Assembly: GCF_003326675.1 (NCBI RefSeq)
Contig: NZ_JPWF01000015.1
Span: 1 to 64,000 of the forward strand
From: Thalassospira profundimaris
Lineage (GTDB): Bacteria; Pseudomonadota; Alphaproteobacteria; Rhodospirillales; Thalassospiraceae
Length of the DNA stretch: 64,000 nt
Reading direction: 5' to 3'
Position numbers and translations under genes: made by a program. Below are positions 8,437-37,631 of the stretch, piece by piece. How positions within the stretch are numbered: position 1 is the stretch's first letter; each line of letters begins with the position of its first letter. Below the pieces are notes generated by a model that saw nothing but the letters and a program-made list of their open reading frames with translations, made no database searches and had not been told where the DNA came from.

Positions 8437-8569
8437 TGTCACCTTTTCTGTCAATTTTGCAGTTTTTTGTCAGCTTATGTGTCAATCCATGTCAACTTAT
8501 CTGGCAATCTGAAATGCTAAGCGATTGATTTCTCTGCATGTCGAAAGTCATCTTTTATGGCACCTGACA
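8437..8569. repeat. Tn7-like transposon end, spaced-site (L-like) type, copy A
   Basis: About 133 bases ending in TGACA at 8565-8569. Read inward from that terminus it begins TGTCAGGTGCCATAAAAG and contains four degenerate copies of TGCCAnAwAAGnTGACA, the innermost three after a gap of about 50 bases. This arrangement resembles the spaced TnsB-binding sites of a Tn7 left end. Almost the same sequence occurs at 37434-37566, and a shorter version at 18924-19024. Confidence 0.75.
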
Positions 8570-8597
8570 TCCTCCCAAAATCCGCAAGCGCTTGATC
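8570..8597. repeat. Copy of the 3' flank of the CAT tRNA, abutting transposon end A
   Basis: TCCTCCCAAAATC plus the next 15 bases match, at 25 of 28 positions, the sequence at 44575-44602, which begins two bases after the CCA of the tRNA at 44495. Here it begins at the first base outside the transposon terminus. It therefore looks like the far side of an insertion made just 3' of a tRNA gene. Confidence 0.65.
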
Positions 8598-8916
8598 TCG
8601 CTTTGCATCGGACTTCTCCAAGTTCGGTGGATCACCACATGGTTAGACTGTATCTTTGGCTTATCTTTGTCAAAGGATGCGCGATACACGCGATTTGGTC
8701 AGACACTTTGGCTGTGCTTCTGTGGGCGGTCAAGTAAGGGATGTGGCGGCAACGTAAGATCTTATAAAGCAGCTTCTGCCTTTCTCCTGCGCCAAGTGAA
8801 TGAGGCCACGCCGCCGGTATTGTTGATGGGTGTACCAGCGGCGTGCAAACATGTTGTTGCAGTCGGTGCAGATTTTCAGGCGCCATTTACTGCATCCTTG
8901 TGTACCGAACAGCACC

Positions 8917-9144
8917 TCACCAGAAATGGGGCATTGGCCATCGATCCGGGAGCGGAACCAGATCATTCCAGTCCGCGCCTTTGAGGATGTGGCGAAGATA
9001 GGCGCGCTCGAGCGTCCGCATCGGTTTGTGAACACGAAATTTGCGCCATTCTGTGTTAACGCCATCCGGGAAGCGCGGCCGCGGATAGTCGCAATGACGC
9101 TCGGCGATCTTCTGTCCCTTCTGCTTGCGATAGGTACGTGACAT
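8917..9144 (-). CDS. Small basic protein of unknown function
   Basis: A 75-residue frame starting MSRTYRKQKGQKIAE, rich in Arg, Lys, Tyr and Trp, with a ribosome site (AGGAGA) about 8 bases ahead of the ATG. I do not recognise a family with certainty; the N-terminus resembles small basic phage or mobile-element proteins. It lies alone in the roughly 1 kb between transposon end A and the GntR gene, a stretch with no other convincing gene. It could also be a decayed fragment. Confidence 0.35.
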   Translation of the reverse strand: MSRTYRKQKGQKIAERHCDYPRPRFPDGVNTEWRKFRVHKPMRTLERAYLRHILKGADWNDLVPLPDRWPMPHFW

Positions 9145-9490
9145 CACGCGTCTCCTAAGTTGAACCCTAGAAGACGTCGAGCAGCAGATAGAAAAAGCCG
9201 GCGGGTGATATGGTGCAACCCGAGCACATACAAACACCCGGTTCGCACAAGGACGTTCCGGGAGCATTGAGGGGCGCAGGCAAAGCGATGTCAGCTAAAT
9301 TTTTGAACCGTTACTATAAGCGTGATGTGACCCGCAGACAAGCGGTCGGCTGTTGGCAAGGAGCATGCGACACGCGTTTACGCAGGTCCGGCGGCGTACC
9401 GATCGTTTCGGGGCTGATTTTGTCCGTTAATTGAGGTTTCCAGACAAAGTAAACCTGAGCTCCTGCAAGAAAGTGGATTCATGCAGCAAC

Positions 9491-9517
9491 CGCCCAAATT
9501 GTCATAATTCGGGGTTA
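9491..9517. repeat. Interspersed palindromic repeat, copy 1
   Basis: A 27-base sequence nearly identical to 19103-19129, differing at one base. Its core also occurs at 44630-44648. The core in the other copies is the perfect palindrome CCGAATTGTCATAATTCGG; here one base of an arm is changed (CCAAATT). The rest of 9145-9598 shows nothing I can name. Confidence 0.55.
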
Positions 9518-9598
9518 TCGATCTACAACGTCTATTTCTGGTCATGCGAAGCAGTCGTAGTTGATGACATGTGCTAACTTGGCCGTTCTAAGGCATAA

Positions 9599-10501
9599 TC
9601 AGGAGCGCGATGAAAAGATGTTTGGCTGCGCTTTCTCTTCCGATGCACCTCCTATATGCCGCCTGAGAAGTTCCGCAGCCTTCGTATTGTTGCCGGTCAA
9701 TAGGGCGTCAATAATCTCAAGATGCTGTTCCGTTTGCCGTTTGACGCGTGCACGATCAATCGTCTGACGATATTCAACAAGACGTCTAAGTTGGTTTTGT
9801 TTGGCAACTGATTGTGCAAGAAACCGGTTACCTGACATCTCAGCGAGACTTTCATGGAACTGCGAGTTGGCCTCAAACAGTTCAATTTGCCCGAGTGTTT
9901 CAAAGCCCTTGTCGTGAATGAATTCTTGCTGGGTTTTTAGGTGCTTCAAAACCGTAATATTTGCTTTGAATCCTTCCGCCTGTAAGCCTGCTGGTTCAAG
10001 AATCTGACGAAGTGCATAGCTTTCCCGATAGGCTTCGACCGAGTCAATCATTGGTAGAAACAACCAACCGTTTCCGGCCTTGCGTTCAATCCAGCCTTCG
10101 GATGAGATACGTCCGAGGACGCGACGCAAGCTATATCGCGGAACGTCGTAGCGCCGCATTAATTCGGCTTCGGTGACTTTTTCCTCCAGGGTTGACGCAA
10201 GTCGATCTGCCGCGATGGCAAGATATATGCGTTCATCATCTGCTTCTGGTGCATCTGAAATGCGATCCAAGGCATCGTTAGGTACAGAAAGCAGAAAGAA
10301 CCCACGATTTGGCCGTTTCTCTAAAAAGCCTTGATCTGAAAGATAGTTGAGCGCCGCGCGGATCGGGCCGCGCGACGTTCCTAGCAAATGTTGTAAGGAT
10401 GTTTCGGTGAAGTGATGCCCTGCTTCCAAGCCGGATGTACGCGCAAATAGTAATATACGTTGCGCAAGTTGAATATGTAGCTGATTTGGGACAACACTCA
10501 T
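9599..10501 (-). CDS. GntR-family regulator with two winged-helix domains and an FCD-like domain
   Basis: A 300-residue protein. Residues about 8-72 form a winged helix (LHIQLAQRIL... GTSRGPIRAALNYLSDQGFLEKRPNRG). A second winged-helix-like unit follows at about 90-150 (LMRRYDVPRYSLRRVLGRISSEGWIERKAGNGW), and then a helical FCD-type ligand domain. It ends the leftward operon aconitase-prpF-regulator, 15 bases after prpF, so it probably senses a tricarboxylate and controls the cluster. Candidate binding sites lie at 14369-14418. The doubled winged helix is unusual for GntR proteins, which normally have one. Confidence 0.8.
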   Translation of the reverse strand: MSVVPNQLHIQLAQRILLFARTSGLEAGHHFTETSLQHLLGTSRGPIRAALNYLSDQGFLEKRPNRGFFLLSVPNDALDRISDAPEADDERIYLAIAADRLASTLEEKVTEAELMRRYDVPRYSLRRVLGRISSEGWIERKAGNGWLFLPMIDSVEAYRESYALRQILEPAGLQAEGFKANITVLKHLKTQQEFIHDKGFETLGQIELFEANSQFHESLAEMSGNRFLAQSVAKQNQLRRLVEYRQTIDRARVKRQTEQHLEIIDALLTGNNTKAAELLRRHIGGASEEKAQPNIFSSRS

Positions 10502-10516
10502 GAATGCCTGCTTTAT

Positions 10517-11665
10517 TTATTGATCGGCCAACCGTGCCGGTACTGCAACGCTTCCTTTCATTAGGCAGCGTGCTGTTCGGAATACACTAGCATAGTCAAC
10601 GCTCCAACCATCAACTTGATCGACCTTCGCACTCACCCCGACAACCCCGGAAGGATTGCCAACACGAATCTCTGCGGTGTTGGGCGTGCTTGAGGACATG
10701 GCATGGGGGATCGTTCCTTTAATTAGAGAAGCAACACCGGCACACATCGCACCTGTAAGGGTAATGGCCTTATGGGCGCGTTCCATTGAAAGCATGTTGA
10801 TGCCAATGTCATAGTCGTTCTTGTTAAAGGCCGAACTATCGAGTGCAACAAACGCATTAGGGCGCGACGCAATAGCGATTTTGGGATTTGCCAGTCCTGC
10901 GGTTCCAGGTGTGTTTGCAAGCCCCATCAAAACAGCAGCCTTCCGCCTGATGTCATCAAGAGTTGCCATCAGACCAGGTAAAGTTTCTATCTCGTCGGGG
11001 TGCCGTAGACCTTGCAGGTTAAGATCTTCTGCTGCAACAAATGCAACCGGGTTACTCGCATCGATCATGGAGATACTGAGCTTACGTCCGTTATCCATGA
11101 CAATTTGGTCAACGACGTTTCCCGTCGGGAGCAGGCCGGATGTAATCGACCCGCCGGGAGACTTGAAATCAAGTCGAATTCTCGCCCCGCTGCCAGAGAC
11201 TCCAGCTATTGCCAGTTCTCCCTCAACCAGCGGCTTGCCATGTCGAACAGGAACCTGCGCGTGAATTATTTTACGCGTATTGACCTGATGAATTCGGACC
11301 GATGTTATGCCGTCTGTTGCAGAAATTAAGCCTTCCTCAATCGCGAATGGACCAACAGCAGAGCTCAGGTTGCCACAGTTCGCGCCGCGGTCGACAACAG
11401 CCTTGTCGACTGCAACCTGGGCAAAAGTGTAATCGATGTCGGCATCCGGGTGAGTTGAAGGGCCGATGATCACTGCTTTTGACAGAGATGAGACACCACC
11501 ACCCATACCGTCAAGCTGTCGACCGTTCGGATCAGGGCTCCCCATTGCTGCGAGGAATATCTCATCCTGTCGTTCAATTTCTGCAGGTAGGTCTTTGGCA
11601 TGAAAGAACAGGCCCTTGCTAGAGCCGCCGCGATAAAATGAAGCTGGAATAAAATACTGGTTCAT
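10517..11665 (-). CDS. prpF: PrpF-family isomerase (2-methylaconitate/aconitate isomerase-like)
   Basis: A 382-residue protein starting MNQYFIPASFYRGGSSKGLFF, which carries the family's N-terminal RGGTSKG-like motif. Later conserved stretches are MGGGVSSLSKAVI and GANCGNLSSAVGPFAIEEGL, the active-site half of the diaminopimelate-epimerase-like fold. PrpF enzymes isomerise trans-2-methylaconitate to the cis form and are known to act on trans-aconitate. I chose the ATG at 11663-11665 because of the GAGGAAAA ribosome site; it lies 10 bases after the aconitase stop. No prpB or prpC is present, so a methylcitrate cycle is not indicated locally. Confidence 0.85.
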   Translation of the reverse strand: MNQYFIPASFYRGGSSKGLFFHAKDLPAEIERQDEIFLAAMGSPDPNGRQLDGMGGGVSSLSKAVIIGPSTHPDADIDYTFAQVAVDKAVVDRGANCGNLSSAVGPFAIEEGLISATDGITSVRIHQVNTRKIIHAQVPVRHGKPLVEGELAIAGVSGSGARIRLDFKSPGGSITSGLLPTGNVVDQIVMDNGRKLSISMIDASNPVAFVAAEDLNLQGLRHPDEIETLPGLMATLDDIRRKAAVLMGLANTPGTAGLANPKIAIASRPNAFVALDSSAFNKNDYDIGINMLSMERAHKAITLTGAMCAGVASLIKGTIPHAMSSSTPNTAEIRVGNPSGVVGVSAKVDQVDGWSVDYASVFRTARCLMKGSVAVPARLADQ

Positions 11666-11675
11666 GGCGTTTTCC

Positions 11676-14336
11676 TCAGGCGTTAACCGTTGACACATAT
11701 TCGCGCCAAACAGCAGGCAAAATGCCGCCCTCCAGCCAATATTCGAGCTCTTCTTCAGTCTCGATACGAACAGTCAGGTTGATGCTGGACGTGTCGCCGT
11801 TCTCTCGGTGAACAAGGCATTGTAGGGTTGAGCGAACTCCAACTGATTGTTCGAGATTGAGCAAATCAAACGTTTCAGTTCCATCAAGGTTCAGAGCATT
11901 TGCATTGGTGTCGGCAGGCAGTTCTAGTGGAAGAACGCCCATACCAACGAGGTTGGTGCGGTGAATCCGCTCAAAGCTCTCCGCGATAACTGCTTTGACG
12001 TTTAGGAGCGCCACACCTTTTGCTGCCCAATCTCGGGAAGACCCACATCCGTAATTCTTGCCGGCCACAACAACAAGCGGGACATTTCTTTTCTTGTAGA
12101 TTTCAGCGGCATCGAAAACCGACATTTGTTTGCCTTCAGGCATCAGTTTAGTGATGCTTCCTTCTGTACCTTCGACGATTTTATTCTTGAGGCGGATGTT
12201 TGCGAATGTCGCCCGAACAGCTATTTCATGGTTGCCGCGGCGCGTGCCATACGAGTTGAAGTCTCTTTTCTGCACACCCTTACCAAGCATGAAGTTCGCG
12301 GCTGCTGAATGATCGGCAATCGCACCGGAAGGTGAGATATGATCTGTGGTGATAGAATCACCCAGGATAGCCAGTGGTCGCATTCCCTTGATGTCTATCA
12401 CCTCATTTCGGTGTGGTGAGAGCTCGTCAAAGTACGGTGCCTGACGGATGTAAGTGCTGTCCGCCTTCCAGGAGAACTGGCTTCCCGGCTTCTCAGACAA
12501 TGAAACCCATTTATCATCGCCGTCAAAAATCTCATTATATTTCTCAACAAACAACTTCGGGTCGTAGGCTGTCGAGACAATCGACGAAATTTCTGTCGCT
12601 GACGGCCAGATGTCAGCAAGGAAAACAGGGGTGCCGTGACGATCTTGACCTAGCGGTTCGGTCCGCAGGTCTATATTGAGATTGCCAGCAATTGCATAGG
12701 CAACGACCAAAGCTGGGGACGCCAAATATGCGGCACGAACGTTGGGGTGAGTTCGTCCTTCAAAGTTACGGTTACCCGACAGTACTGCTGTTGCGAGAAT
12801 CTTCTCGTTATCAATGGTCTCGGCCAAGGCTTCATCAATTGGCCCAGACATGCCGTTGCATGTTGTGCAGCCAAACCCGACAACCTGGAAGCCAAGTTTG
12901 TCGAGGTGAGATTGCAAGCTAGTGTTTTCTAGGATCGCGGCAACAACTTGGCTACCGGGTGCTAACGAAGTTTTCACCCAAGGCTTGACGGTTAAACCTA
13001 GCTCTGCTGCACGTTTTGCAAGCAAGCCCGCACCGATCATGTTGATTGGATTGGAGGTGTTGGTGCAACTGGTGATTGCGGCGATGACAATGTCCCCGTC
13101 CTTCAAGCTATAGCCTTTTGAAGGGATATTTGTTTCTGCCTGCAGGTCACGGTGAGAGTTTATTGACTTCTGGAGTGTCTGGAACGCTTGTTTGGCATTG
13201 CTCAAAGAAATTCGATCTTCTGGCCTCCACGGTCCCGCAATCGAGCTTTCAACTTCAGAAAGATCAAATTGAACGACTTGCTCAAAGACTGGTGCGGAAG
13301 ATTTGCTGTCGCGCCACATCAATTGTGCTTTGGCATATGCTTCGACCAAGGCAATGTGTTCTTCCGTGCGACCGGTCATTCGCAGATAGTCTGAAAGACG
13401 CTCATCTGGCGGGAAATACACGCAAGTTGCACCAAATTCCGGTGCCATATTTGCAATCGTACCGCGGTCTGCAACAGGCAAGCCATCAAGGCCTTTGCCA
13501 AAGAATTCAACAAACTTTCCGACAACACCTACCGCCCTTAGGCGCTCGGTAATTGCCAGGACAATATCTGTTGGCATAACGCCTTCAGGAATTGTGCCGG
13601 TGATTTCGACGCCAACTACTTCGGGAATCGGAAGTGAAACAGCGCGTCCGAGCATGACGGCTTCCGCTTCGATGCCGCCAACACCCCAACCAAGAATACC
13701 CAAACCATTAATCATTGTTGTGTGGCTGTCTGTGCCAACAAGGGTATCGGGGTATGCCCAAGTGCCATCATCGGTCTCATCAGTCCAAATCACCTTGCCC
13801 AGATACTCCATGTTGATCTGGTGCATGATGCCTTTTCCGGGCGGGACAACACGTAGCTTGTCGAAACTGGTTTGGCACCAGCGCAAGAAACCAAAGCGTT
13901 CTACGTTGCGCTCATGCTCCAGTTCGAGATTAATTTTTCGTGCTGCATCACTGGCAGACACATCGACGCGCAATGAATGGTCAATGACCAGGTCTGCCGC
14001 AACGCGTGGGTTCACATCAGACGGATTGCCGCCAGCCTTGGCGACCGCATCTCGCAGAGAGGCGAGATCAACCATCAACGGAACACCAAGAAGATCTTGC
14101 AAAAACACTCGAGCGGGGAAGAAGGGAATCCCTTCTCCTATCCTTCGGTTTACTAGAGAATCGATATTTTTCGCGTGATCTTCGTGCCGGTGTGCGTGCC
14201 GTAACTGGTTTTCCAGTACGACTTTCAGCGCTATGGGCAAGCTCTCGCAGCCTGCAATTTCTGAAATCGGCATATAGAGGTACCGCTTTCCAGAGACATC
14301 TAACTCTCTGTTTTTATGTGGATTTGTGCGGGACAT
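11676..14336 (-). CDS. Aconitate hydratase (AcnA/AcnD type)
   Basis: An 886-residue protein, the usual length of AcnA-type aconitases. The 4Fe-4S cysteine motifs ITSCTNTSNP (near residue 424) and GFGCTTCNGMSG (near 490) are intact. The swivel domain has YGCGSSRDWAAKG and VIAESFERIHRTNLVGMG. The start at MSRTNPHKN is preceded by a strong AAGGAGGAATTC ribosome site; the longer frame from 14399 lacks one. It interconverts citrate, cis-aconitate and isocitrate, or acts as the 2-methylcitrate dehydratase AcnD. First gene of the aconitase-prpF-gntR operon, divergent from a tricarboxylate transporter. It is probably a cluster-specific enzyme additional to a housekeeping aconitase. Confidence 0.92.
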   Translation of the reverse strand: MSRTNPHKNRELDVSGKRYLYMPISEIAGCESLPIALKVVLENQLRHAHRHEDHAKNIDSLVNRRIGEGIPFFPARVFLQDLLGVPLMVDLASLRDAVAKAGGNPSDVNPRVAADLVIDHSLRVDVSASDAARKINLELEHERNVERFGFLRWCQTSFDKLRVVPPGKGIMHQINMEYLGKVIWTDETDDGTWAYPDTLVGTDSHTTMINGLGILGWGVGGIEAEAVMLGRAVSLPIPEVVGVEITGTIPEGVMPTDIVLAITERLRAVGVVGKFVEFFGKGLDGLPVADRGTIANMAPEFGATCVYFPPDERLSDYLRMTGRTEEHIALVEAYAKAQLMWRDSKSSAPVFEQVVQFDLSEVESSIAGPWRPEDRISLSNAKQAFQTLQKSINSHRDLQAETNIPSKGYSLKDGDIVIAAITSCTNTSNPINMIGAGLLAKRAAELGLTVKPWVKTSLAPGSQVVAAILENTSLQSHLDKLGFQVVGFGCTTCNGMSGPIDEALAETIDNEKILATAVLSGNRNFEGRTHPNVRAAYLASPALVVAYAIAGNLNIDLRTEPLGQDRHGTPVFLADIWPSATEISSIVSTAYDPKLFVEKYNEIFDGDDKWVSLSEKPGSQFSWKADSTYIRQAPYFDELSPHRNEVIDIKGMRPLAILGDSITTDHISPSGAIADHSAAANFMLGKGVQKRDFNSYGTRRGNHEIAVRATFANIRLKNKIVEGTEGSITKLMPEGKQMSVFDAAEIYKKRNVPLVVVAGKNYGCGSSRDWAAKGVALLNVKAVIAESFERIHRTNLVGMGVLPLELPADTNANALNLDGTETFDLLNLEQSVGVRSTLQCLVHRENGDTSSINLTVRIETEEELEYWLEGGILPAVWREYVSTVNA

Positions 14337-14368
14337 GAATTCCTCCTTGGTCAAATTCTGAAACATGA

Positions 14369-14418
14369 TTGTCATATGTGTTGACATAAAACAAGTCATA
14401 TGTTTTCACTTATGACAA
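14369..14418. promoter_or_regulatory. Probable operator array for the tricarboxylate cluster regulator
   Basis: Three copies of a 10-base unit lie just upstream of the aconitase start: TTGTCATATG (14369-14378), AAGTCATATG (14393-14402) and, inverted, CTTATGACAA (14409-14418). Spacing of the first two is 24 bases. The position between divergent aconitase and tctC genes fits control of both by the GntR-type regulator at 9599. Confidence 0.5.
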
Positions 14419-14661
14419 TAAGAGCAAGCGAACGATATCTCGGAATGAACCGAGAAATCGCAGCAGCTGCAGCAGAGAGCGACCAAGAAACGAGGAAGAG
14501 GCTTGGTGTCCGTCCATGTCGTCAAGTAACCGAAGTGTCTTGTATCGGATGAAGTCGGTACTTCCCGTTTCACCAAACGATAATCAGAGAGTCGGATCCG
14601 TGCCGTGAAATGAACGGGTCTGGAAAAGGGAACGCTTTTGTTCCAATTCATCGGGAGGAAA

Positions 14662-15651
14662 ATGATGAAATCAATTCGAGCTTTGTGCGTAACTGGTCTC
14701 ATTGCCTTTGCCAGTGGCGGGGCAACGACGGCTTTCGCATTCGAGCCAGAAAGCCCTCAATGTATTGCTCCGTCAGGTGCTGGTGGCGGCTGGGATTTCA
14801 CTTGCCGCCAAGTTGGTAAGGCGATGCAAGATCAGAAGCTTATCTCAAGCACGATGCGTGTTGTTAATGCTGCAGGCGGCGGCGGCGGAGTTGCCTATGC
14901 CGAAGTTGTCAACAAAATGAATGACGACAATGATCTGATTGTTGCAGCTTCTTCTGCTACTGCCACGCGTCTCGCTCAAGGTGCATATCCTGGAAACACG
15001 ATGGACCAGGTTCGTTGGGTAGGAACAATCGGCGCTGACTACGGTGTTATCGGTGTAGCTGCCGATTCTCCGGTTAATTCGTTGACCGAGCTAATGGACC
15101 AGATCAAGCAAGACCCATCATCTGTTAACTTTGCGGGCGGCTCAGCTGTTGGTGGATGGGATCATCTCAAAGTTCTTCTTGCTGCCAAGAAGTCCGGAAT
15201 CAGCGATGTACGGAAAGTAAAGTATGTTGCGTTTGATGGTGGTGCAGAAGCTGTGGTTCAGATCATGGCTGGTACTGTCCAAGCCTTTACCGGTGATGCC
15301 TCTGAGGCAAAAGGTTTTGTTGAGTCAGGGGACCTGAAAGTTCTCGCCATTCTCGCGCCAGAACGTCTCGACGGTGAATTTGCTTCGTTCCCGACTGCAA
15401 AGGAACAGGGCATTGATGTTGTTGGTGCGAACTGGCGTGGTTTTTATGCGCCATTGAATATGTCTGAAGAGGCGTATGACTTCTGGGTGAACTCTGTAGG
15501 CGAAGTTTATGCATCCGCAGAGTGGAAGAAAACCATGGAGGCAAACGGATTGGCTCCACTGGATCTTCGCGGTGCCGAGTTTGAAGACTTCGTTCGTGCT
15601 TCGGTCAACGATATCGAAAGCCTCTCGAAAGAGATCGGCCTGATCAAGTAA
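14662..15651 (+). CDS. Tripartite tricarboxylate transporter substrate-binding protein (TctC/Bug family)
   Basis: A periplasmic receptor of 329 residues with a signal peptide (MMKSIRALCVTGLIAFASGG, cleavage near TTAFA). It has the family N-terminus CIAPSGAGGGWDFTCRQ, which contacts the carboxylate ligand, and the usual VQIMAGTVQAFTGDA segment. The ribosome site GGGAGGA precedes two adjacent ATG codons (14662, 14665); the second has better spacing. It heads tctC-tctB-tctA and captures a di- or tricarboxylate. With aconitase and PrpF-like enzyme divergently encoded, citrate, tricarballylate or an aconitate isomer is the likely ligand. Confidence 0.9.
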   Translation: MMKSIRALCVTGLIAFASGGATTAFAFEPESPQCIAPSGAGGGWDFTCRQVGKAMQDQKLISSTMRVVNAAGGGGGVAYAEVVNKMNDDNDLIVAASSATATRLAQGAYPGNTMDQVRWVGTIGADYGVIGVAADSPVNSLTELMDQIKQDPSSVNFAGGSAVGGWDHLKVLLAAKKSGISDVRKVKYVAFDGGAEAVVQIMAGTVQAFTGDASEAKGFVESGDLKVLAILAPERLDGEFASFPTAKEQGIDVVGANWRGFYAPLNMSEEAYDFWVNSVGEVYASAEWKKTMEANGLAPLDLRGAEFEDFVRASVNDIESLSKEIGLIK

Positions 15652-15669
15652 TCCATCTACCGCGCTAGC

Positions 15670-15695
15670 GTCCGCCAACTTGCAAGTTGGCGGAC
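15670..15695. promoter_or_regulatory. Perfect 26-base palindrome between tctC and tctB
   Basis: Arms GTCCGCCAACTTG and CAAGTTGGCGGAC meet without a spacer. It starts 18 bases after the tctC stop and ends 12 bases before the tctB ribosome site. No T-run follows, so a terminator is unlikely. It probably protects the 3' end of the tctC message, allowing more receptor than membrane subunits. Confidence 0.6.
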
Positions 15696-15719
15696 CACTC
15701 TACAACAGGAGTAAAATTC

Positions 15720-16151: not shown

Positions 16152-16162
16152 GGATTGGATAA

Positions 16163-19024: not shown

Positions 19025-19026
19025 GC

Positions 19027-28749: not shown

Positions 28750-28775
28750 AATATTATTAATTAATATTATTAATT
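28750..28775. promoter_or_regulatory. Tandem AT-rich repeat before the epimerase gene, probable operator
   Basis: Two perfect direct copies of AATATTATTAATT lie side by side, 18 bases upstream of the epimerase start codon. A copy differing at one base sits at 31954-31966 before the second binding-protein gene of the same cluster. The shared unit suggests one regulator for both transcription units. Confidence 0.5.
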
Positions 28776-28793
28776 CAATAGGGAGGGGGATTA

Positions 28794-29774: not shown

Positions 29775-29810
29775 TCAATTCCGGGCCAGACCAACTAGGG
29801 AGAGCTAAAC

Positions 29811-30806
29811 GTGAAACATAAAATGTTACTAACTCTCACATCTGCGCTCATTCTTGCGACAGGTGTTAGCACTGCAAATGCCGATGGGAAAAAGACATTG
29901 GCTATTGTGGTGAAAGGCTTGGATAACCCGTTCTTCGAGCAAATCAACCTGGGTTGTCAGAAGTGGATGTCGGAGAACATGGACTCTGAATACGAGTGTT
30001 TGTACACCGGGCCCGCATCCAGTGCTGATGAGGCTGGCGAGGTTCAGATCGTCGATGATCTGTTGACCCGCGGTGTTGCCGCAATCGCAATTTCGCCGTC
30101 AAATGCGCCGGCGATGGCAAACCGAATTCGTCAGATCAACCCGAATGTGCCAGTGATGACGATTGATGCCGATTTCCTTGAAAAAGATCGCGACTTGCGT
30201 GCGACCTATCTGGGGACTGACAACTATCTGATGGGTGTCAAAATGGCCGAAGAAGCCATGATGCTTAAACCGGATGGGGGATCGGTATGTTTGCAGTTGG
30301 GGAACGTTGCGGCGGACAATATCAACGCGCGTGCTTCTGGCTTCCGCGACACGATTTCAGGGACTAAGGGCACGGAGCGCCTTGCGAACAGCAATGGCTG
30401 GACGGAAATTGAAGGGTGTCCGGTCTTTACCAATGACCAGGTCGATCTTGCTAACCAGCAGATGGCCGACACCTTCACGGCAAATCCCGATCTTGATGCC
30501 TTTATTCTGATTGGCGGCTGGGCACAGTTTGCGCCGCAAGCCTATGCCCAGGTTACCGATCAGGTCATGGATCGGCTGAAATCCAAGGAACTGATCCTGG
30601 TTGCGGGCGATACGCTTCCTCCGCAAACCCAGGCATTCCGCGACGGGCGCAGTCATGCGCAGGTCGGTCAGCGTCCGTTTGAGATGGGGTATCGGGCACC
30701 TGACGTGATGATCGAACTGATCAATGGCAAAAAGGTAGATGATCCACTCTATACGGGACTGGATGTTTGCAATCAGTCGGATCCGGGCTTTTGCGCGGAT
30801 AACTAA
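29811..30806 (+). CDS. Sugar ABC transporter, periplasmic substrate-binding protein
   Basis: A 331-residue protein starting at GTG behind AGGGAGAG, with a signal peptide (cleavage near ANA). Type 1 sugar-binding fold: LAIVVKGLDNPFFEQINLGC, VAAIAISPSNAPAM, VPVMTIDADF. It has four or more Cys in the mature part (for example EYECLYTG and DVCNQSDPGFC), which could form disulfides. It lies in cluster C between the epimerase and a Gfo/Idh oxidoreductase, without an adjacent ATPase, so it may share the transporter encoded at 33077-37408. Confidence 0.86.
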   Translation: MKHKMLLTLTSALILATGVSTANADGKKTLAIVVKGLDNPFFEQINLGCQKWMSENMDSEYECLYTGPASSADEAGEVQIVDDLLTRGVAAIAISPSNAPAMANRIRQINPNVPVMTIDADFLEKDRDLRATYLGTDNYLMGVKMAEEAMMLKPDGGSVCLQLGNVAADNINARASGFRDTISGTKGTERLANSNGWTEIEGCPVFTNDQVDLANQQMADTFTANPDLDAFILIGGWAQFAPQAYAQVTDQVMDRLKSKELILVAGDTLPPQTQAFRDGRSHAQVGQRPFEMGYRAPDVMIELINGKKVDDPLYTGLDVCNQSDPGFCADN

Positions 30807-30827
30807 TACCAATCCTTGATGAACTGG

Positions 30828-30852
30828 GCCGGATTTGTTGATCGGATCCGGC
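30828..30852 (+). promoter_or_regulatory. Hairpin after a binding-protein gene
   Basis: GCCGGAT (30828-30834) and ATCCGGC (30846-30852) form a stem, followed by TCGATTTTTA. It lies 21 bases after the binding-protein stop and before the oxidoreductase. It could be a weak terminator or a message-stabilising hairpin. Confidence 0.5.
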
Positions 30853-30890
30853 TCGATTTTTATCCGGACTTACACAGGGCCGAAGACAAC

Positions 30891-31895
30891 GTGACAAAAA
30901 CAAAAATCAACTGGGGCATTCTTTCGACGGCCAATATCGGCGTGGAGAAAGTTATTCCGGCAATCAAAAAATCACCCTCGTCGAATGTGCTGGGGATTGC
31001 ATCGCGCAATGCGGGGCGATCGGCGAGGGTGGCCAATGACCTTGGAATTCAGAAGTCTTATGCGTCTTACGAGGCGTTGATTGCTGATCCGGAAATTGAT
31101 GCGATTTACAACCCGTTGCCAAACCATATGCATGTCGACTGGACGCTGGCTGCAGCACAGGCGGGTAAGCATGTGCTGTGTGAAAAGCCCATCGGACTAA
31201 ATGCACGCGATGCAGAACGGCTACGCGCGTGTCCGAAAAATGTGCTGGTCGCAGAGGCCTTTATGGTGCGCTACCACCCGCAATGGATACGTGTGCGCGA
31301 GATGGTCAGAAGCGGCGAGCTTGGTGAGGTCAGGGCGATCCAGGCGGCATTCAGTTACTTTAACGATGATGCTCAGGATATCCGCAACAGGCCAGAGGCC
31401 GGCGGCGGTGCCGTCATGGATATCGGTTGCTATCCGATCACGGCGGGCCGTTTTTTGTTCGAAGACGAGCCGGTGCGCGTCATGGCCCTGATCGATCGAG
31501 ATCCCGTATTCAAAACCGATCGGATGGCGAGTGTGGTTGCGGACTTCGGCGGCGGTCGGCAATTGTCATTCATGGTTTCGACGCAACTGTGCCCGTATCA
31601 GACCTTGAATGTGTTTGGCACGAAGGCGCGGGCCGAAATCATGATCCCCTACAATGCGCCGGCAGATAAAGAAACCGCCCTGATTATCGATGCGGGCGAG
31701 AGCCTGGATGGCAGTCTGGCTGGCTGCGAGATCGTGCCTGCGTGTGATCAGTATACCGAACAGGCGGAAATGTTTGCGCAGGCCATTCTGACAGGAAGAG
31801 GTTTGCCATACGGCATCGAGGATTCGATTGCCTCCATGCGTGTTCTTGACGCGGTTTTTGCGAGCGAAGAGCAAAAAACGTGGGCCAATCTGTGA
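30891..31895 (+). CDS. Gfo/Idh/MocA family oxidoreductase
   Basis: A 334-residue NAD(P)-dependent dehydrogenase. It has the N-terminal Rossmann segment WGILSTANIG, the family catalytic motif CEKPIGLNA and AEAFMVRYHP. I set the start at GTG 30891, which puts the Rossmann strand near the N-terminus; a longer frame from TTG 30816 would overlap the upstream hairpin. Members oxidise sugars, inositols or sugar acids. With the epimerase and the SMP-30 lactonases nearby, a sugar to lactone to acid route is plausible. Confidence 0.86.
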   Translation: MTKTKINWGILSTANIGVEKVIPAIKKSPSSNVLGIASRNAGRSARVANDLGIQKSYASYEALIADPEIDAIYNPLPNHMHVDWTLAAAQAGKHVLCEKPIGLNARDAERLRACPKNVLVAEAFMVRYHPQWIRVREMVRSGELGEVRAIQAAFSYFNDDAQDIRNRPEAGGGAVMDIGCYPITAGRFLFEDEPVRVMALIDRDPVFKTDRMASVVADFGGGRQLSFMVSTQLCPYQTLNVFGTKARAEIMIPYNAPADKETALIIDAGESLDGSLAGCEIVPACDQYTEQAEMFAQAILTGRGLPYGIEDSIASMRVLDAVFASEEQKTWANL

Positions 31896-31940
31896 TTAAA
31901 ACCATCAACTTACGCAACCGGGGGTGAAAAACGCTTGATC

Positions 31941-31969
31941 CATAATTATTAATGATATTATTAATTATG
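31941..31969. promoter_or_regulatory. AT-rich near-palindrome before the second binding-protein gene
   Basis: Outer arms CATAATTA and TAATTATG enclose GATATTATTAATT (31954-31966), which matches the tandem unit at 28750-28775 in 12 of 13 bases. It ends 60 bases upstream of the start codon at 32030. Probable operator or promoter element shared in cluster C. Confidence 0.5.
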
Positions 31970-32029
31970 AGCCGCACAGATAATTTATAAATACAGTCGT
32001 GCGGATTGTTAATCGGGAGGATTAAACGC

Positions 32030-32977
32030 ATGAAATTTGCAACAACATTCGCAACCCTCGGTCTGTCAATGGTTCTGGCTGGCGGGGCGTTCGCACAAGA
32101 AAAGCAGCAGCTTGCATTCGTGGTGAATGCTGCTTCGGACTTTTGGAAACTGGCAGAAGCAGGGGTCGAGGCCGCACAGGCAGAACTCCCCGAATATGAG
32201 CTGCAGTTCCGGTATCCTGCACAGGGAACGGCAGCACTTCAGAATGCGCTGATGGATGATTTGGTTGCCGGGGGGACTGATGCGATCATGATTTCGTCTG
32301 CCGATCCAAAGAACTCTATTGATGCGTTCAATCGCATTGCGGCCCAGGTGCCGCTCTTTACCACCGACAGTGATGCCCCGCAAAGTGATCGCATCGCCTA
32401 TCTTGGATCATCCAACACTGCCGCTGGCGTGCAGGCTGGTGAAATTGCCGTGAAAGCACTACCAAACGGTGGGAAATGCATGGGCTTTGTCGGGTTCCTT
32501 GGCGCCGACAACGCGATTGAGCGTATCGCCGGTTTCCGTCAGGCGGTTGAAGGCAGCGGTATCGAGCTTGTCGATGTGCGTGGTGATGATGTTGATTTTG
32601 CGCGTGCGCGATCAAACGTCGATGACGTGCTTGCGGCAAATCCCGACATTGATTGCATGGTCGGGTTCTATTCCTACAACCCGCCGAAAATTTACGAAGC
32701 ATTGCAGGCTGCTGGCAAATTGGGGCAGGTGACCGTTATTGCCTTTGATGAAGACCCTGTAACGCTTGGCGCGGTTCGTGAGGGCAGCTTTGCTGGCACT
32801 GTTGTTCAGGACCCGTACCAGTGGGGGTATCAGGGCATGCACCTGATGGCGGATTATCTTGAGGGCGATATGTCGAAGGTGCCCGCAGATGGCTTGATCA
32901 TCGTGCCGACCCAGGTGATCGACAAATCCAATGTCGATGAGTTCGAGGCTGTCGTTAAGGAAAGAATAGGCGGGTAA
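32030..32977 (+). CDS. Sugar ABC transporter, periplasmic substrate-binding protein
   Basis: A 315-residue protein, start MKFATTFATLGLSMVLAGGA behind a GGGAGGA site, signal cleavage after AFA. It has a type 1 sugar-binding fold with LAFVVNAASDFWKLAEAGVE, TDAIMISSADPKNS and IGFDEDP-like VIAFDEDPVT. It heads the unit ATPase-permease-ATPase-permease. It differs clearly from the receptor at 29811, so cluster C may import two substrates. Confidence 0.88.
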   Translation: MKFATTFATLGLSMVLAGGAFAQEKQQLAFVVNAASDFWKLAEAGVEAAQAELPEYELQFRYPAQGTAALQNALMDDLVAGGTDAIMISSADPKNSIDAFNRIAAQVPLFTTDSDAPQSDRIAYLGSSNTAAGVQAGEIAVKALPNGGKCMGFVGFLGADNAIERIAGFRQAVEGSGIELVDVRGDDVDFARARSNVDDVLAANPDIDCMVGFYSYNPPKIYEALQAAGKLGQVTVIAFDEDPVTLGAVREGSFAGTVVQDPYQWGYQGMHLMADYLEGDMSKVPADGLIIVPTQVIDKSNVDEFEAVVKERIGG

Positions 32978-32996
32978 TTTTCTTCCCCCTGCCTAG

Positions 32997-33033
32997 CGAG
33001 CGGGCGTGTGAAATCTGCGAGTGCGCCTGCTCG
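32997..33033 (+). promoter_or_regulatory. Hairpin after the second cluster C binding-protein gene
   Basis: CGAGCGGGCG (32997-33006) pairs with CGCCTGCTCG (33024-33033), with one G-T wobble and a 17-base loop. It starts 20 bases after the stop. Position is the same as in the other binding-protein genes here. Confidence 0.5.
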
Positions 33034-33076
33034 CACCTTTCCAACGATGTCGAATGGACATTGGGGAGCCGAATAT

Positions 33077-34594
33077 ATGAGTGCAGTGCATGGGCTTGAT
33101 CTGCGACTTGAAGGTGTCACCAAGGTTTATCCCGGTGTGGTGGCCCTTAATGATGTTTCATTGCAGATCAAAGCTGGCGAAGTTGTTGGACTTCTTGGTG
33201 AAAACGGGGCTGGTAAATCAACCCTTATGAAGATTCTCGGTGGGCTGATTGCGCCGACATCCGGGAAAATTATTCTTGATGGTCAAGAGTATGATGCGTT
33301 TGACGTCAAACAGTCCCAGCAAGCAGGGATCGCGTTTGTTCATCAGGAACTGAATGTTTTTGATAACATGGATGTGACGGCTAACATCTTTCTTGGCCGT
33401 GAGAAAGTTCGCGGGCCGTTCCGTCTGACCGATCATCGGGCAATGCAGGACTTGGCAAAGCCGCTGCTGGATCTTGTCGGTGCACGGTTCAAACCGGATA
33501 CGCCGGTTTCATCCTTGTCACTGGCAGAACGTCAGCTGCTTGAAATCGCAAAGGCGTTATCGATGAATGCAAGGCTTGTCATCATGGACGAGCCGACTTC
33601 CAGCCTTACGCTTTCCGAAACCAACATGTTGTTGAAGGTCATTGCCGATCTGAAAGCGCAAGGAATTGCGGTCGTTTATATTTCCCATCGGCTAAGCGAG
33701 GTTGAAGAATGCGTGGATCGTGCAGTCGTGCTGCGAGACGGGCATAAAGTTGGTGCCCTTGAACGCGATGAAGTTACGCACGACGCGATGATCCGCATGA
33801 TGATCGGGCGGGAGCTCAAGGCGCTTTATACGCCACCCGCGGTCGCTGCGACCCGACCTGTGCTTGAAGTCAAAGACCTTTCGACCAAAGGCAAACCGGA
33901 CCGTCCGGCCAGCTTCGAGTTGAAGGCTGGCGAAATTCTTGGTGTCGCCGGGCTCATCGGTGCCGGTCGGACGGAATTGGCGGAAGTGATCTTTGGCGTG
34001 GGGGAAAAGCTCGGCGGCAAGGTGCTGATTGACGGCCTTGAGGTGAAGGTAAATAGCCCTGCGGATGCAATCGCAGCCGGGCTCTATCTGGTGCCGGAAG
34101 ATCGCAAACGGGCCGGGCTGATTCTGGAGTTCCCGACTTTGGAAAACGTCACAATGGCCAACCTTCCAGCCTTCACTTCGCGCGGGCTGGTCTCGCGGGA
34201 GAGGCAGATCGAGGTCGCGGAAGCGCAACGGGTGGCCCTGTCAATCAAGACCCAGGATGTGCGCCGTGCAGCCAACGAGATGTCTGGTGGAAACCAGCAA
34301 AAAGTCGTTCTGGCGAAATGGTTGTCGATGAATCCGAAGGTCATCATTTTCGATGAACCCACGCGCGGCATTGATGTGGGGGCGAAAGCCGAGATTTATG
34401 GATTAATGCGATCGCTGGCGGATCGCGGAGTTGGGGTGATGATGATATCGAGCGACATGGAAGAGGTGATCGGAGTGTCTGACCGCATTGTCGTCATGAA
34501 AGACGGCGTGATCACAGGGGAATTGCCCAGATTGAAATTTTCCGAAAGCAACGTGCTCAATCTTGCCGTTGGCAAAGTGCTGGAAGAGGCCTGA
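33077..34594 (+). CDS. Sugar ABC transporter ATPase, tandem-domain
   Basis: A 505-residue two-domain ATPase. Domain 1: GENGAGKST, FVHQELNVFDNMDV, LSLAERQLLEIAKAL, VIMDEPTSSL. Domain 2: GLIGAGRTELAEVIFG, VPEDRKRAGL, MSGGNQQKV, IFDEPTRGIDVG. All motifs are canonical for the RbsA/XylG group. The start at 33077 has GGGGAG at good spacing; a longer frame from 33008 would begin in the upstream hairpin. It lies 3 bases before the permease. Confidence 0.9.
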   Translation: MSAVHGLDLRLEGVTKVYPGVVALNDVSLQIKAGEVVGLLGENGAGKSTLMKILGGLIAPTSGKIILDGQEYDAFDVKQSQQAGIAFVHQELNVFDNMDVTANIFLGREKVRGPFRLTDHRAMQDLAKPLLDLVGARFKPDTPVSSLSLAERQLLEIAKALSMNARLVIMDEPTSSLTLSETNMLLKVIADLKAQGIAVVYISHRLSEVEECVDRAVVLRDGHKVGALERDEVTHDAMIRMMIGRELKALYTPPAVAATRPVLEVKDLSTKGKPDRPASFELKAGEILGVAGLIGAGRTELAEVIFGVGEKLGGKVLIDGLEVKVNSPADAIAAGLYLVPEDRKRAGLILEFPTLENVTMANLPAFTSRGLVSRERQIEVAEAQRVALSIKTQDVRRAANEMSGGNQQKVVLAKWLSMNPKVIIFDEPTRGIDVGAKAEIYGLMRSLADRGVGVMMISSDMEEVIGVSDRIVVMKDGVITGELPRLKFSESNVLNLAVGKVLEEA

Positions 34595-34597
34595 ACA

Positions 34598-35581
34598 ATG
34601 CAAAAAAAAGATATCGGTCTTGGCGTGCTGATTATTGTGGTTGGTGCAATCGTTTACATGCAGAACCCGTTATTCCTGTCGCCGATCAACCTTGGAAATA
34701 CCGCGAACCTTATTGGTTTGTTTGGTCTTTTTGCGATCGGACAGGGCTTCGTCATTATGACCGGTGGTATTGATCTTTCGGTCGGTTCAGTGATTGCCCT
34801 TCTGGGGGTTTTGTTTGTCGATATGGTCGGGAAATTTGATGTCGCATGGCCAATAGCTGTTGCGATTACAATAGGTCTGGGCGTGCTGATCGGGTTGGCC
34901 CACGGGATTTTGATCACCCGATTTAGGTTGCAACCATTTGTTGTCACGCTATGTGGTCTTTTGATCTATCGCGGCATTGCCAGGGGGTACACAGCAGAGT
35001 CTACAGCCGGGTTCCCGTTCGGTTCGAGCTATCCCCAGTTGGAATGGTTGACAATTGGGCGGAGTTTTGGGGTTCCCCATTCCTTTATTGCCATGCTGAT
35101 TGTTGCGGCTGTGATGTGGGTTGTGCTGCACCATACCGTATTTGGGCGGCACCTGTGTGCGGTTGGGAAAAACGAAGAAGCAGCACGGTTCTCAGGGATA
35201 AATACCCGCTTCGTTACAATTGCCGCATATGTCATTTGCGCGGTTCTGGCCTCCATTGCGGCGATCTATTTCGCAATGTTCACAAAGTCCGTGCAACCGT
35301 CTTCGCATGGCAATTTCTATGAGCTTTATGCAATTGCTGCAGCGGTGCTTGGGGGATGTTCGCTTCGTGGCGGAGAAGGATCGGTCATTGGCATTGTTCT
35401 GGGTGCGGTATTGCTCCAGGAACTTCAAAACCTTGTCAATCTGCTCGGAATTCCGTCTTCGCTGAACTTCGCAGTGATGGGGGCGGTGATTTTGCTGGGT
35501 GTTCTGGCGGATCAGCAATTTGCAGCCTATCGCACCAGAAGAAATACCGAAAGGGCGCTGGGTTTGCTGCAAAAGCCATAA
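34598..35581 (+). CDS. Sugar ABC transporter permease (RbsC family)
   Basis: A 327-residue protein with the canonical TGGIDLSVGSVIAL motif, about ten membrane segments and AVLGGCSLRGGEGSVIG near the C-terminus. Close coupling to the tandem ATPase (3-base gap) suggests these two plus the receptor at 32030 form one transporter. Confidence 0.9.
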   Translation: MQKKDIGLGVLIIVVGAIVYMQNPLFLSPINLGNTANLIGLFGLFAIGQGFVIMTGGIDLSVGSVIALLGVLFVDMVGKFDVAWPIAVAITIGLGVLIGLAHGILITRFRLQPFVVTLCGLLIYRGIARGYTAESTAGFPFGSSYPQLEWLTIGRSFGVPHSFIAMLIVAAVMWVVLHHTVFGRHLCAVGKNEEAARFSGINTRFVTIAAYVICAVLASIAAIYFAMFTKSVQPSSHGNFYELYAIAAAVLGGCSLRGGEGSVIGIVLGAVLLQELQNLVNLLGIPSSLNFAVMGAVILLGVLADQQFAAYRTRRNTERALGLLQKP

Positions 35582-35645
35582 ACCACAAAAGAAAACCGTC
35601 TGCTTGTTACCACATTAGGTGGATCAGCAGATATGGGGGGTGTTC

Positions 35646-36386
35646 ATGAATGTGCTTGAACTTAAAAATATATCCAAACGTTATGGCGCCATACAGGCAC
35701 TTGATAGCGTGTCACTTGCCATTGCGCCGGGCGAAGTTGTCGGACTTATGGGCGATAACGGTGCGGGGAAATCCACCTTGGTCAAGGTGATTGCGGGCAA
35801 CTTTGCCCCGACGTCGGGCGATATCCTTATTTCCGATAAGAAAGTGGCGTTTAACAAACCGTTGGATGCACAGAAAGCCGGTATCGAGGTCGTTTATCAG
35901 GATCTGGCGATTTGCAACAATCTGAGTGCAGCATCGAACGTATTTTTGGGGCGTGAACCGACCCGCAGGATAGGGCCGATCAAGGTTGTTGATTATGCCT
36001 TCATGCGCAGCAAATCCGCCGAACTGTTTGCGCGCTTGAAATCGGAAACCCGTCCCCGTGATCTGGTGCACAAAATGTCCGGCGGGCAGCGTCAGGCCGT
36101 TGCAATCGCACGAACCCTTTTGAGCGATGCCAAGATCGTCTTGATGGACGAGCCAACGGCTGCGATCTCCGTTCGGCAGGTGGCGGAAGTCCTCAATCTT
36201 ATCCGGCAGCTTAGTGATCACGGTATCGCCGTCGTTCTGATCAGCCACCGAATGCCCGATGTCTTTGAGGTCGCAGACAAGGTTGTTGTCCTAAGGCGCG
36301 GCGAACTTGTTGCAGACAAAAAAGCATCGCAGTCTTCGCCAGAAGAAATTACGGGCCTGATTACTGGCGCGATTGAGCACGCATGA
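35646..36386 (+). CDS. Sugar ABC transporter ATPase, single-domain (FrcA-like)
   Basis: A 247-residue protein with one nucleotide-binding domain: GDNGAGKST, YQDLAICNNLS, signature MSGGQRQAVAIART, LMDEPTAAIS, H-loop LISHRMPDV. A single domain is the pattern of fructose-type (FrcA) systems, unlike the tandem ATPases elsewhere in the window. Start at MNVLELKNISKRYG. It overlaps the next permease by 4 bases. It likely forms a second transporter with that permease, perhaps served by the receptor at 29811. Confidence 0.88.
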   Translation: MNVLELKNISKRYGAIQALDSVSLAIAPGEVVGLMGDNGAGKSTLVKVIAGNFAPTSGDILISDKKVAFNKPLDAQKAGIEVVYQDLAICNNLSAASNVFLGREPTRRIGPIKVVDYAFMRSKSAELFARLKSETRPRDLVHKMSGGQRQAVAIARTLLSDAKIVLMDEPTAAISVRQVAEVLNLIRQLSDHGIAVVLISHRMPDVFEVADKVVVLRRGELVADKKASQSSPEEITGLITGAIEHA

Positions 36387-37408
36387 GTGGACATGAAAAA
36401 GGAACAATGAACATGGCAACGCCGACTCTTGCTGAAGTCATCAATCGTTCTCAGCACCACGGGCTGATCGCGCGGATCACAAGCCAGCAGATTTTTTGGG
36501 TGTTTATGGCGGCTGTTTTTGCCTGCCTGGCATTGACGATCCTTACCGACAGTTTCGCAACAGAGCGCAACCTGTTCAATGTCACCCGCAATTTTGCGTT
36601 TGTCGGGATCATTGCGCTTGGCATGACGGCGGTTATTGCCTCCGGCGGGATTGACCTTTCTGTTGGCTCTACGCTGGTGATCTCTGCGATGACTGTCAGC
36701 GTCATCATGTCCGCAGGAATGCCGTTTTGGCTCGGTTGTATTGCCGCACTTGGCATCTCGTTGCTTGTCGGGGCGGTTAATGGCGTGCTGATTGCCTATG
36801 CGAAAATGCCGCCATTCGTGGTGACGCTTGGCATGCTGTCGGTTGCGCGCAGTCTGGCAATGGTGCTTTCTGATAACAAGATGATCTATGAGTTCGGGCC
36901 GGATCACGACTTCTTGCTTTGGCTTGGGGGCGGTTCGACGCTTGGTCTTCCGCATCCGTTGATCATCATGGTGATTCTGGCGTGCCTGACGGCGTTCGCG
37001 TTTAGGCATTTACGTTGGGGCCAGCATTTGTTCGCGATTGGCGGTAACGAAAACGCAGCGGTTCTGACCGGTATTCCCGTCGCGCGCATCAAAGTCAGCG
37101 TTTATATGTTTTCGGCCCTGATGGCAGGTATTACCGGGGTCCTGGAAGTTGGCTGGCTCGGTGGGGTTACGACCAATCTTGGTCAGGCGATGGAGTTGAC
37201 CGTCATTGCCGCCGCTGTCATTGGCGGTGCCAATCTTGCGGGTGGTGGTGGCACTGCGTTTGGTGCCGTGGTCGGTGCTTTGTTGATTGAAGTGATCCGC
37301 AACAGCCTTATTTTACTTGGTATCAGCACGTTCTGGCAGGGAACGTTTGTCGGATCGTTTATTGTGATAGCCGTGGCATTTGATCGCTTTAGGCAGAGAA
37401 GGTCGTAG
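36383..37408 (+). CDS. Sugar ABC transporter permease (FrcC-like)
   Basis: A 341-residue permease with a 30-residue hydrophilic N-terminus, ASGGIDLSVGSTLVISAM and VIGGANLAGGGGTAFG. The ATG at 36383 gives an ATGA overlap with the ATPase; an internal ATG at 36407 with an AAGGAA site is an alternative start. It is the last gene before the transposon end at 37434, only 25 bases away. Confidence 0.87.
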   Translation: MSGHEKGTMNMATPTLAEVINRSQHHGLIARITSQQIFWVFMAAVFACLALTILTDSFATERNLFNVTRNFAFVGIIALGMTAVIASGGIDLSVGSTLVISAMTVSVIMSAGMPFWLGCIAALGISLLVGAVNGVLIAYAKMPPFVVTLGMLSVARSLAMVLSDNKMIYEFGPDHDFLLWLGGGSTLGLPHPLIIMVILACLTAFAFRHLRWGQHLFAIGGNENAAVLTGIPVARIKVSVYMFSALMAGITGVLEVGWLGGVTTNLGQAMELTVIAAAVIGGANLAGGGGTAFGAVVGALLIEVIRNSLILLGISTFWQGTFVGSFIVIAVAFDRFRQRRS

Positions 37409-37433
37409 ACTTACAAAAGTGCTATTAGAGAAA

Positions 37434-37566
37434 TGTCGCCTTTTCTGTCAATCCTGCAGCTTTTTGTCAGCTTATGTGTCAATCCGTGTCAACTTATGTG
37501 GCAATCGGAAATTCTAAGTATTTGATTTTGCTGTATGTCGAATGTCAGCTTTTGTGGCACGTGACA
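37434..37566. repeat. Tn7-like transposon end, L-like type, copy C
   Basis: Four spaced sites of the TGCCACATAAGTTGACA type (read inward from 37566), the first separated from the rest by about 50 bases as in copy A. The terminus (TGACA, 37562-37566) directly abuts the R-like end at 37567. Confidence 0.78.
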
Positions 37567-37631
37567 GTCACGTGCCAGAAAAGCTGACATTTTCGCCAGA
37601 AAAGCTGACAATCTTGCCAGAAAAGATGACA
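37567..37631. repeat. Tn7-like transposon end, tandem-site (R-like) type
   Basis: Three tightly packed direct repeats with a 21-base period: TGCCAGAAAAGCTGACA (37573), CGCCAGAAAAGCTGACA (37594) and TGCCAGAAAAGATGACA (37615). Packed TnsB sites next to tnsA are the hallmark of a Tn7 right end. The outermost bases read GTCACG after a shared A, rather than a full TGTCACG. It is the only end of this type that I find in the window. Confidence 0.78.

Follow-up and report, generated by a model that had tools for sequence, protein, structure and literature searches.

The window analysed here is the first 64 kb of contig C7 (112,851 bp) in a 4.88 Mb assembly of Thalassospira profundimaris. It contains a tnsA-tnsB-tnsC-tniQ gene set, one transposon R end, three L ends, a tRNA(CAU) gene and several blocks of transport and catabolic genes (Table 1). 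By its defining features, namely the order of tnsA, tnsB, tnsC and tniQ, the ends, the 5-bp target duplication and the fixed site, the system is a Tn7-like element. The region is probably part of a large genomic island at an rpoD-linked tRNA(CAU) gene, built by a Tn7-like family with TnsABC and TniQ. Comparisons covered 29 Thalassospira genomes including this one (labelled G001 and so on), and contigs C7, C12 and C21 of the present assembly.

A preliminary description of the window had placed an R-like end beside one tnsABC-tniQ module. That end holds three sites, and all four genes scored above the Pfam gathering thresholds. The count of one module is correct for the window, but a second tnsABC-tniQ module lies on C21, with a TnsB 83% identical to that of the window. 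The TnsB proteins of G001 and G016 are ~44% identical to it, and TnsB was detected at E ≤ 1e-20 in 10 of the 29 genomes. Among solved structures, PseTnsAB and Tn6677 TnsB were nearest. A class-wide search at E ≤ 1e-100 found TnsB in 3 of 385 genomes (the present one and two outside the genus at 35% identity). Plasmid DNA searched with 37400-41400 gave no match, and a plasmid protein search with TnsB returned 3521 records at E ≤ 1e-30, every one below 60% identity. No cas genes were noticed by eye among the translated genes adjoining tns, where no dedicated search was made. TniQ is likely to be the selector of the tRNA site. On C21, the position equivalent to the TacA1-like gene holds a 32% similar stretch that, within the coordinates used, is not an open frame.

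Table 1. Coordinates of features on contig C7 within the window
Feature	Position	Strand	Remarks
Histidine-kinase gene, 5' part	1-549	-	91% identity with 20690-21238; cut by contig start
Cluster A	751-6085	+	Periplasmic binding protein, ABC ATPase, permease by Pfam; block closes at L end 1
Cluster A, further permease and SMP-30-like protein	within 751-6085	+	By reading and from similarity to 26538-27965
L end 1	8434-8569	+	Full length, four TnsB-type sites, outer end rightward
Flank copy after L end 1	8570-8597	+	28 bp, 89% identical to 44575-44602
Boundary motif CCCAAATTGTCATAATTCGGG	9493-9513	+	Left edge of tricarboxylate block
Tricarboxylate block	9599-18570	.	GntR regulator, PrpF-like protein, aconitase AcnA, TctC, TctB, TctA, SBP_bac_3
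L end 2	18923-19024	+	Three of four TnsB-type sites, internal deletion
tRNA flank, hairpin type 2	19025-19125	+	Motif CCCGAATTGTCATAATTCGGG at 19105-19125
Clusters B and C	19253-37408	.	Response regulator, histidine kinase, sugar-type ABC transport genes, SMP-30, LacI, epimerase, Gfo/Idh oxidoreductase
L end 3	37431-37566	+	Full length, four TnsB-type sites
R end	37567-37631	+	Three sites; without first T of pattern TGTCNNNTGCCA
TnsA-like endonuclease	38430-39065	+	Pfam Tn7_TnsA-like_N above gathering score
TnsB-like transposase	39062-41149	+	Pfam Mu-transpos_C above gathering score
TnsC/TniB-like AAA ATPase	41124-42092	+	Pfam TniB above gathering score
TniQ, 517 aa	42079-43632	+	Pfam TniQ above gathering score; weak C-terminal HTH match below Pfam cut-off
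TacA1-like antitoxin gene	43723-44010	+	Past tniQ
Element-borne tRNA(CAU)	44495-44572	+	Past tniQ and TacA1-like gene
Flank of element-borne tRNA, type 6	44573-44649	+	Uninterrupted; motif at 44629-44649
Decayed L end, then decayed tRNA flank	53689-53789 and 53790-53887	+	Profile from 30 full-length relatives

Transposon ends

The three L-like ends share one orientation, as had been described, and their limits were corrected to 8434-8569, 18923-19024 and 37431-37566. They are 102-136 bp long with three or four TnsB-type 17-mer sites each, and pairwise identities in the alignment were 79-87%. The outer L consensus is TGTCA and the R pattern TGTC, and the ends are asymmetric with several predicted TnsB sites. 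A DNA search of the whole assembly with L end 3 gave three more strong copies (E = 7e-26 to 2e-41), all on C7. The R end ranked next (E = 8e-6), and elsewhere in the assembly no contig gave a match better than E = 0.0075. With strong copies confined to C7, a genome-wide repeat identity of the L ends was ruled out. Scanning for further ends, as had been proposed, yielded a fourth full L end outside the window (79997-80132 of C7) and the decayed one at 53689-53789.

Across the genus, L ends were found at 51 places in 21 of 29 genomes (E ≤ 1e-4). Thirty-five of these matches share a contig with the host tRNA, and 33 of the 35 lie downstream in tRNA orientation, at most ~119 kb away. The other two are an R-end cross-match in G016 and, in G015, an L end near a different tnsB. 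In G015 a 29-32% identical tnsB (C12:184834-186847), with an L-like end nearby, is upstream of and separate from the tRNA island. At several block borders the L end has an internal deletion but keeps its outer end (G026 30862, G003 102813, G020 37533).

Directly to the right of L end 3 follows GTCACGTGCCAG..., which is an R end minus its first T; all seven R ends that adjoin host tRNAs fit TGTCNNNTGCCA. In the simplest reading, L end 3 belongs to a later element whose insertion point lay 1 bp within an older R end, as would be expected of two insertions at nearly equal distance from the tRNA. Such an insertion would inactivate the earlier R end. The R end at 37567 reads as the opening of an element that runs rightwards towards L79997-80132, and, with L end 3 inserted inside it, that element would be older than the one ending in L end 3. 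Tandem L-R junctions were seen here (37566/37567) and on contig C20 of G005, with 11 bp between L and R.

Insertion at the host tRNA

The host copy of tRNA(CAU) in the present assembly lies at the extreme end of C12, where the contig breaks it off after 46 bases; its neighbour is rpoD, which has sigma-70 domains by Pfam. Host loci whose sequence extends past the tRNA 3' end numbered 28, and in seven of them (G001, G005, G009, G016, G019, G023, G025) an R end starts 7-12 bp past the tRNA. The G005 locus runs from the host tRNA through 9 bp, R, tnsABC-tniQ and cargo to L, and TTCGA stands at both ends of the element. ATAAT flanks both ends of the element in G016, and CGTAT flanks R and L in G001, where these are on different contigs. 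Exact 5-bp duplications were thus present in three of the five genomes that have both an R end at the tRNA and an L terminus.

An empty and an occupied site were provided by G026, where ...CC is followed by ATTTTTTCTG, and G023, where L83202 is followed by ATTTTTTCTG; the following 26.8 kb are 97% identical. Because the shared flank begins with the last tRNA base (A), the G023 insertion would be even nearer to the tRNA. This pair and the duplications, for which the preliminary description had recommended a search, bear out its suggestion of repeated insertion of related Tn7-like elements. Among the island stretches examined, tRNA, R and tns genes were together on one contig only in G005, G016 and G023.

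A phage-integrase gene (Pfam) directly follows the host tRNA in G003 (L061 3230-4336), beside prophage-like genes, and G013, G017 and G021 resemble G003 after the host tRNA by eye. Prophages therefore probably use the same tRNA site.

Block structure of the island

Forty-five L ends with an intact terminus were available in the stretches examined. The right flank of 29 of them matched one of 27 host-tRNA flanks at E ≤ 1e-3, whereas none of 200 random 70-mers from the islands did so. The 29 include the two tandem L-R junctions, matched through a tRNA-R flank. The flanks are of several hairpin types and mostly lead into a motif, TTGTCATAATTCGGGG. Its 15-base core, with at most one mismatch, gave 60 matches in the 29 genomes and 5 for a reversed control. 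All exact core matches on host-tRNA contigs (19 of 19) are downstream and in tRNA orientation; other core matches, some with one mismatch and one exact in G017, are on contigs without the host tRNA. A motif match at p ≤ 0.0025 was located 31-140 nt to the right of 25 of the 45 L ends, where the null was drawn from the islands themselves and so includes true motifs; 9 of 45 pass the 99.9% cut. As flanks and motif follow the L ends, the island reads as a repeated series of tRNA flank, motif, cargo and L end.

The three L ends of the window had been taken as simple closing ends of three elements with decayed R ends. This was not upheld. Most L ends have a copy of a tRNA(CAU) flank behind them, many blocks start with flank and motif and not with R or tns remnants, and the visible R end opens a rightward element into which L end 3 reads as inserted.

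Two other roles for the motif were considered. As a second transposon end it was rejected, no 5-bp duplication having fitted in the cases compared by eye. As the TniQ target it is disfavoured, since the spacing between L and motif depends on flank type (~56-89 bp), whereas insertion stays near the tRNA end.

Blocks recur among the matches listed. G002 2664-24725 and G015 52418-74480 are 96% identical over exactly the stretch from motif to L end, with differing flanks on both sides, and G023 and G026 share three parts, 97-98% identical, arranged in different orders. Cluster C (27463-37450) follows the motif without cluster B in G003 and G026, and a relative of cluster B (27259-35502, 74%) precedes an L end in G024. 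In G018, clusters B and C (19268-35806) come after tRNA, flank and motif and stop at a truncated L end; the operons were thus not seen at the same place free of end sequences. Synteny breakpoints showed enrichment at boundary features, namely L ends, motifs and the end of the tRNA: 32 of 102 on the left and 28 of 102 on the right lie within 120 bp of such a feature, with means of 1.5 and 1.7 (maxima 6 and 8) in 500 shifted controls. Sequence comparison thus documents insertion directly behind the tRNA with the R end nearest to it, insertion in tandem and the recurrence of blocks in other orders.

The element-borne tRNA

An extra tRNA(CAU), just inward of tniQ, is present in four of the six nearest tns modules (C7, C21, G001, G016) and absent in G005 and G023. 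The copies on C7, C21 and G001 are identical and the G016 copy is 97% like them; they differ by ~9% from the host tRNA. The identity is kept despite the TnsB divergence given above (C21 83%, G001 and G016 ~44% relative to the window). Homology between the C7 and C21 modules stops exactly at the 3' end of this tRNA. No tRNA was found in the stretches scanned at seven more distant tns loci (five in the genus, G133 and G239); the scan took in seven of nine loci, leaving out G016:C10 and G007:C1, and the G239 contig stops inside tnsC. By anticodon, ARAGORN assigned both 44495-44572 and the host copies to tRNA-Met. Given the C4-G69 and C5-G68 pairs, the tRNA(CAU) may, we assume, be tRNA-Ile2 (lysidine).

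The stretch 44573-44649 behind the tRNA of the window reads as an unoccupied site. Since 28 bp of this type 6 flank follow L end 1, that end looks like the product of an insertion at a tRNA with such a flank, and the tRNA that was hit is plausibly the one on C21.

What lies to the left of the window is unseen, because window and contig start together. C21 terminates within a response-regulator gene and C7 opens within a histidine-kinase gene; in the paralogue at 19253-21173 the kinase gene follows the response-regulator gene. As this order would span both contig ends, C21 and C7 appear to be neighbours with ~0.7 kb missing between them. Paralogous pairs of histidine kinase and response regulator precede the ABC-transporter clusters A and B (window 1-549 and 19253-21173; C21 24318-25022).

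Cargo

Blocks A, tricarboxylate, B and C of the window are transport and catabolic operons. Three tns-linked elements in relatives hold defence genes. The G005 element has SIR2-HerA and Eco57I-like restriction genes, that of G023 a Druantia DruE1-like gene, and that of G016 a CBASS set (cyclase, E1-E2, JAB, 2TM effector). The G016 element also carries a TctA transporter and has the target duplication on both sides. Catabolic-type cargo, a tripartite tricarboxylate (TTT) transporter, is therefore established within a duplication-bounded Tn7-like element in this one relative. The block structure suggests the same status for the catabolic operons of the window, in agreement with the preliminary description, which had also pointed to the missing R ends and tns genes.

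An IS630-like transposase gene (7147-8133) lies within the block that closes at L end 1. On C21 (L032/L023), imuA-imuB-dnaE2-like mutagenesis genes occupy 7251-12898, between the element-borne tRNA and a boundary motif; imuA was read by eye, and imuB and dnaE2 were identified by Pfam domains. Among the matches listed, the tRNA islands of G003, G004 and G015 contain similar stretches.

Proposed mechanism and alternatives

By comparison of the genomes, elements insert just past the tRNA 3' end with the R end adjoining the tRNA, and a new element lands between the tRNA and earlier insertions. With newcomers on the tRNA side of older DNA, L ends accumulate in one orientation. The further steps of the mechanism are proposed here. 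Any R end could presumably pair with any co-oriented L end, so that one transposition might carry several blocks. The tns-bearing part would later exit, from the nearest L end or from an element nested at the element-borne tRNA, which would serve as a second landing place. Blocks behind the exited part would remain, joined to a clean tRNA site open to the next insertion. Exit of the tns part with the blocks retained would leave many L ends and few R ends and tns modules, and the catabolic operons of the window would be left-behind cargo.

Several explanations compete for the loss of R and tns while flank, cargo and L stay. Pairing of R with different L ends followed by exit of the tns part is favoured here. 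Plain tandem insertion at the tRNA with subsequent random decay of R ends and tns genes is close to the view of the preliminary description and is unlikely. It would accommodate the tandem L-R junctions (C7 37566/37567 and G005 C20) and the several decayed or internally deleted L ends. It also predicts R or tns remnants at the left block edges; what is found instead is the motif, on the right side of 25 of the 45 L ends, and a tRNA flank, at 27 of them (the two L-R junctions excluded). Homologous recombination between the host and element-borne tRNAs would remove R and tns as a circle and leave flank, cargo and L. Four modules do hold the tRNA in direct orientation (in G016 both tRNAs are on one contig, 9 kb apart), and the end of C7/C21 module homology exactly at the tRNA 3' end would suit such an exchange. 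Hybrid tRNAs are predicted by this route, but none was seen, as 28 of 28 host tRNAs are of host type in the 3' half and four of four element tRNAs are of element type, and we regard it as unlikely.

The motif CCCGAATTGTCATAATTCGGG might itself be a site-specific recombination site at which a recombinase exchanges cargo, in the manner of integrons or tycheposons. The motif forms an inverted repeat, it is enriched in islands (60 matches against 5 for the reversed control), and the same cargo is found behind it with different flanks on its left. Deletion between direct motif repeats would, however, yield the same junctions, and no PF00589 gene (E ≤ 1e-5) was found on the island contigs of seven of eight genomes, the nearest in G027 being >230 kb off; serine recombinases were not searched. 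The eight genomes were chosen for having no prophage-like flank, and G003, with an integrase after the tRNA, is not among them. Recombination at the motif is accordingly considered quite improbable. The reading of the L-like sequences as common dispersed repeats with no part in transposition found no support and can be practically dismissed, given their restriction to C7 in the present genome, their TnsB-site architecture and the target duplications shared with R ends in relatives.

A number of observations weigh against exchange of blocks by R-L pairing and exit of the tns part. No block has been caught in the act, and neither end-skipping nor exit of the tns part has been observed. The element of the window has no testable duplication, its R flank being taken by L end 3, and the R ends of G023 and G025 had no matching duplication among the L ends compared. 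At 16 of 45 L ends no tRNA flank was recognised, and ~70 of 102 synteny breakpoints per side are not at a boundary feature. The contig order appears to be C12-C21-C7, and the left neighbour of the window is unassembled. The element-borne tRNA is not essential, as the complete modules of G005 and G023 lack an additional tRNA, and the motif is not close behind it in C21, G001 and G016.

A further proposal is put forward tentatively. The elements may carry their own attachment site (tRNA(CAU) and flank) between machinery and cargo, so that each insertion would bring a fresh landing site. The machinery could then be swapped or lost while the cargo behind it stays, and metabolic blocks might accumulate as an exchangeable, machinery-free, integron-like store run by a Tn7-type transposase.

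Relation to known systems

In Tn7 itself the R end is proximal to the attachment site. Cargo islands of Tn7-like elements were reportedly treated by Parks and Peters in 2007. The system described here shares with Tn7 and with Tn7-like elements that select sites by TnsD/TniQ (Tn7 at glmS; type I-B2 and I-D CRISPR-associated transposons (CASTs) at tRNA genes) TnsA, TnsB, TnsC and TniQ, multi-site ends, the 5-bp duplication, the R end beside the site gene and insertion downstream of the gene. It differs from known attachment-site-directed Tn7-like elements by an own tRNA copy in some elements and by a long series of orphan L ends with tRNA flanks. The use of tRNA genes as sites by Tn7-like elements is described in PMC10293859 and PMC11406308. 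CyCAST inserts 30-33 nt downstream, whereas here R lies 7-12 bp past the tRNA. In the open-access literature covered, including the part of PMC6360697 at hand, no description was found of an own tRNA copy in a Tn7-like element or of the block array; most subscription papers were outside this scope.

Metabolic cargo, which the preliminary description had considered notable, is not new. Benler et al., 2021 (PMC8649781) report cargo islands of Tn7-like elements with defence and some central-carbon-metabolism genes at safe sites. They report few complete metabolic pathways in cargo, whereas the blocks of the window are whole transport and catabolic operons, two of which recur as blocks in relatives.

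Tycheposons (Prochlorococcus; Methylophilaceae, PMC10872708) are alike in the aquatic host, the tRNA-anchored island, a tRNA(CAU) border in one case and nutrient cargo. Here too a tRNA gene stands at the island border. Tycheposons use a tyrosine recombinase (PMC10872708), whereas the present machinery is TnsABC-TniQ. A search of eight genomes for PF00589 genes gave no tyrosine recombinase on C7 or C21, nor any in the islands of the seven other genomes. Nor do the data fit an integron, no PF00589 gene being present on C7 or C21; attC sites were not searched.

The locus offers a clear, testable case of a Tn7-like transposon turning into fixed metabolic islands. Because the blocks are legible by their L ends and tRNA flanks, gene gain at the locus can be time-ordered across the genus. 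The findings suggest that tRNA-anchored nutrient islands of marine bacteria, so far tied to tyrosine recombinases (tycheposons), can arise by Tn7-type machinery.

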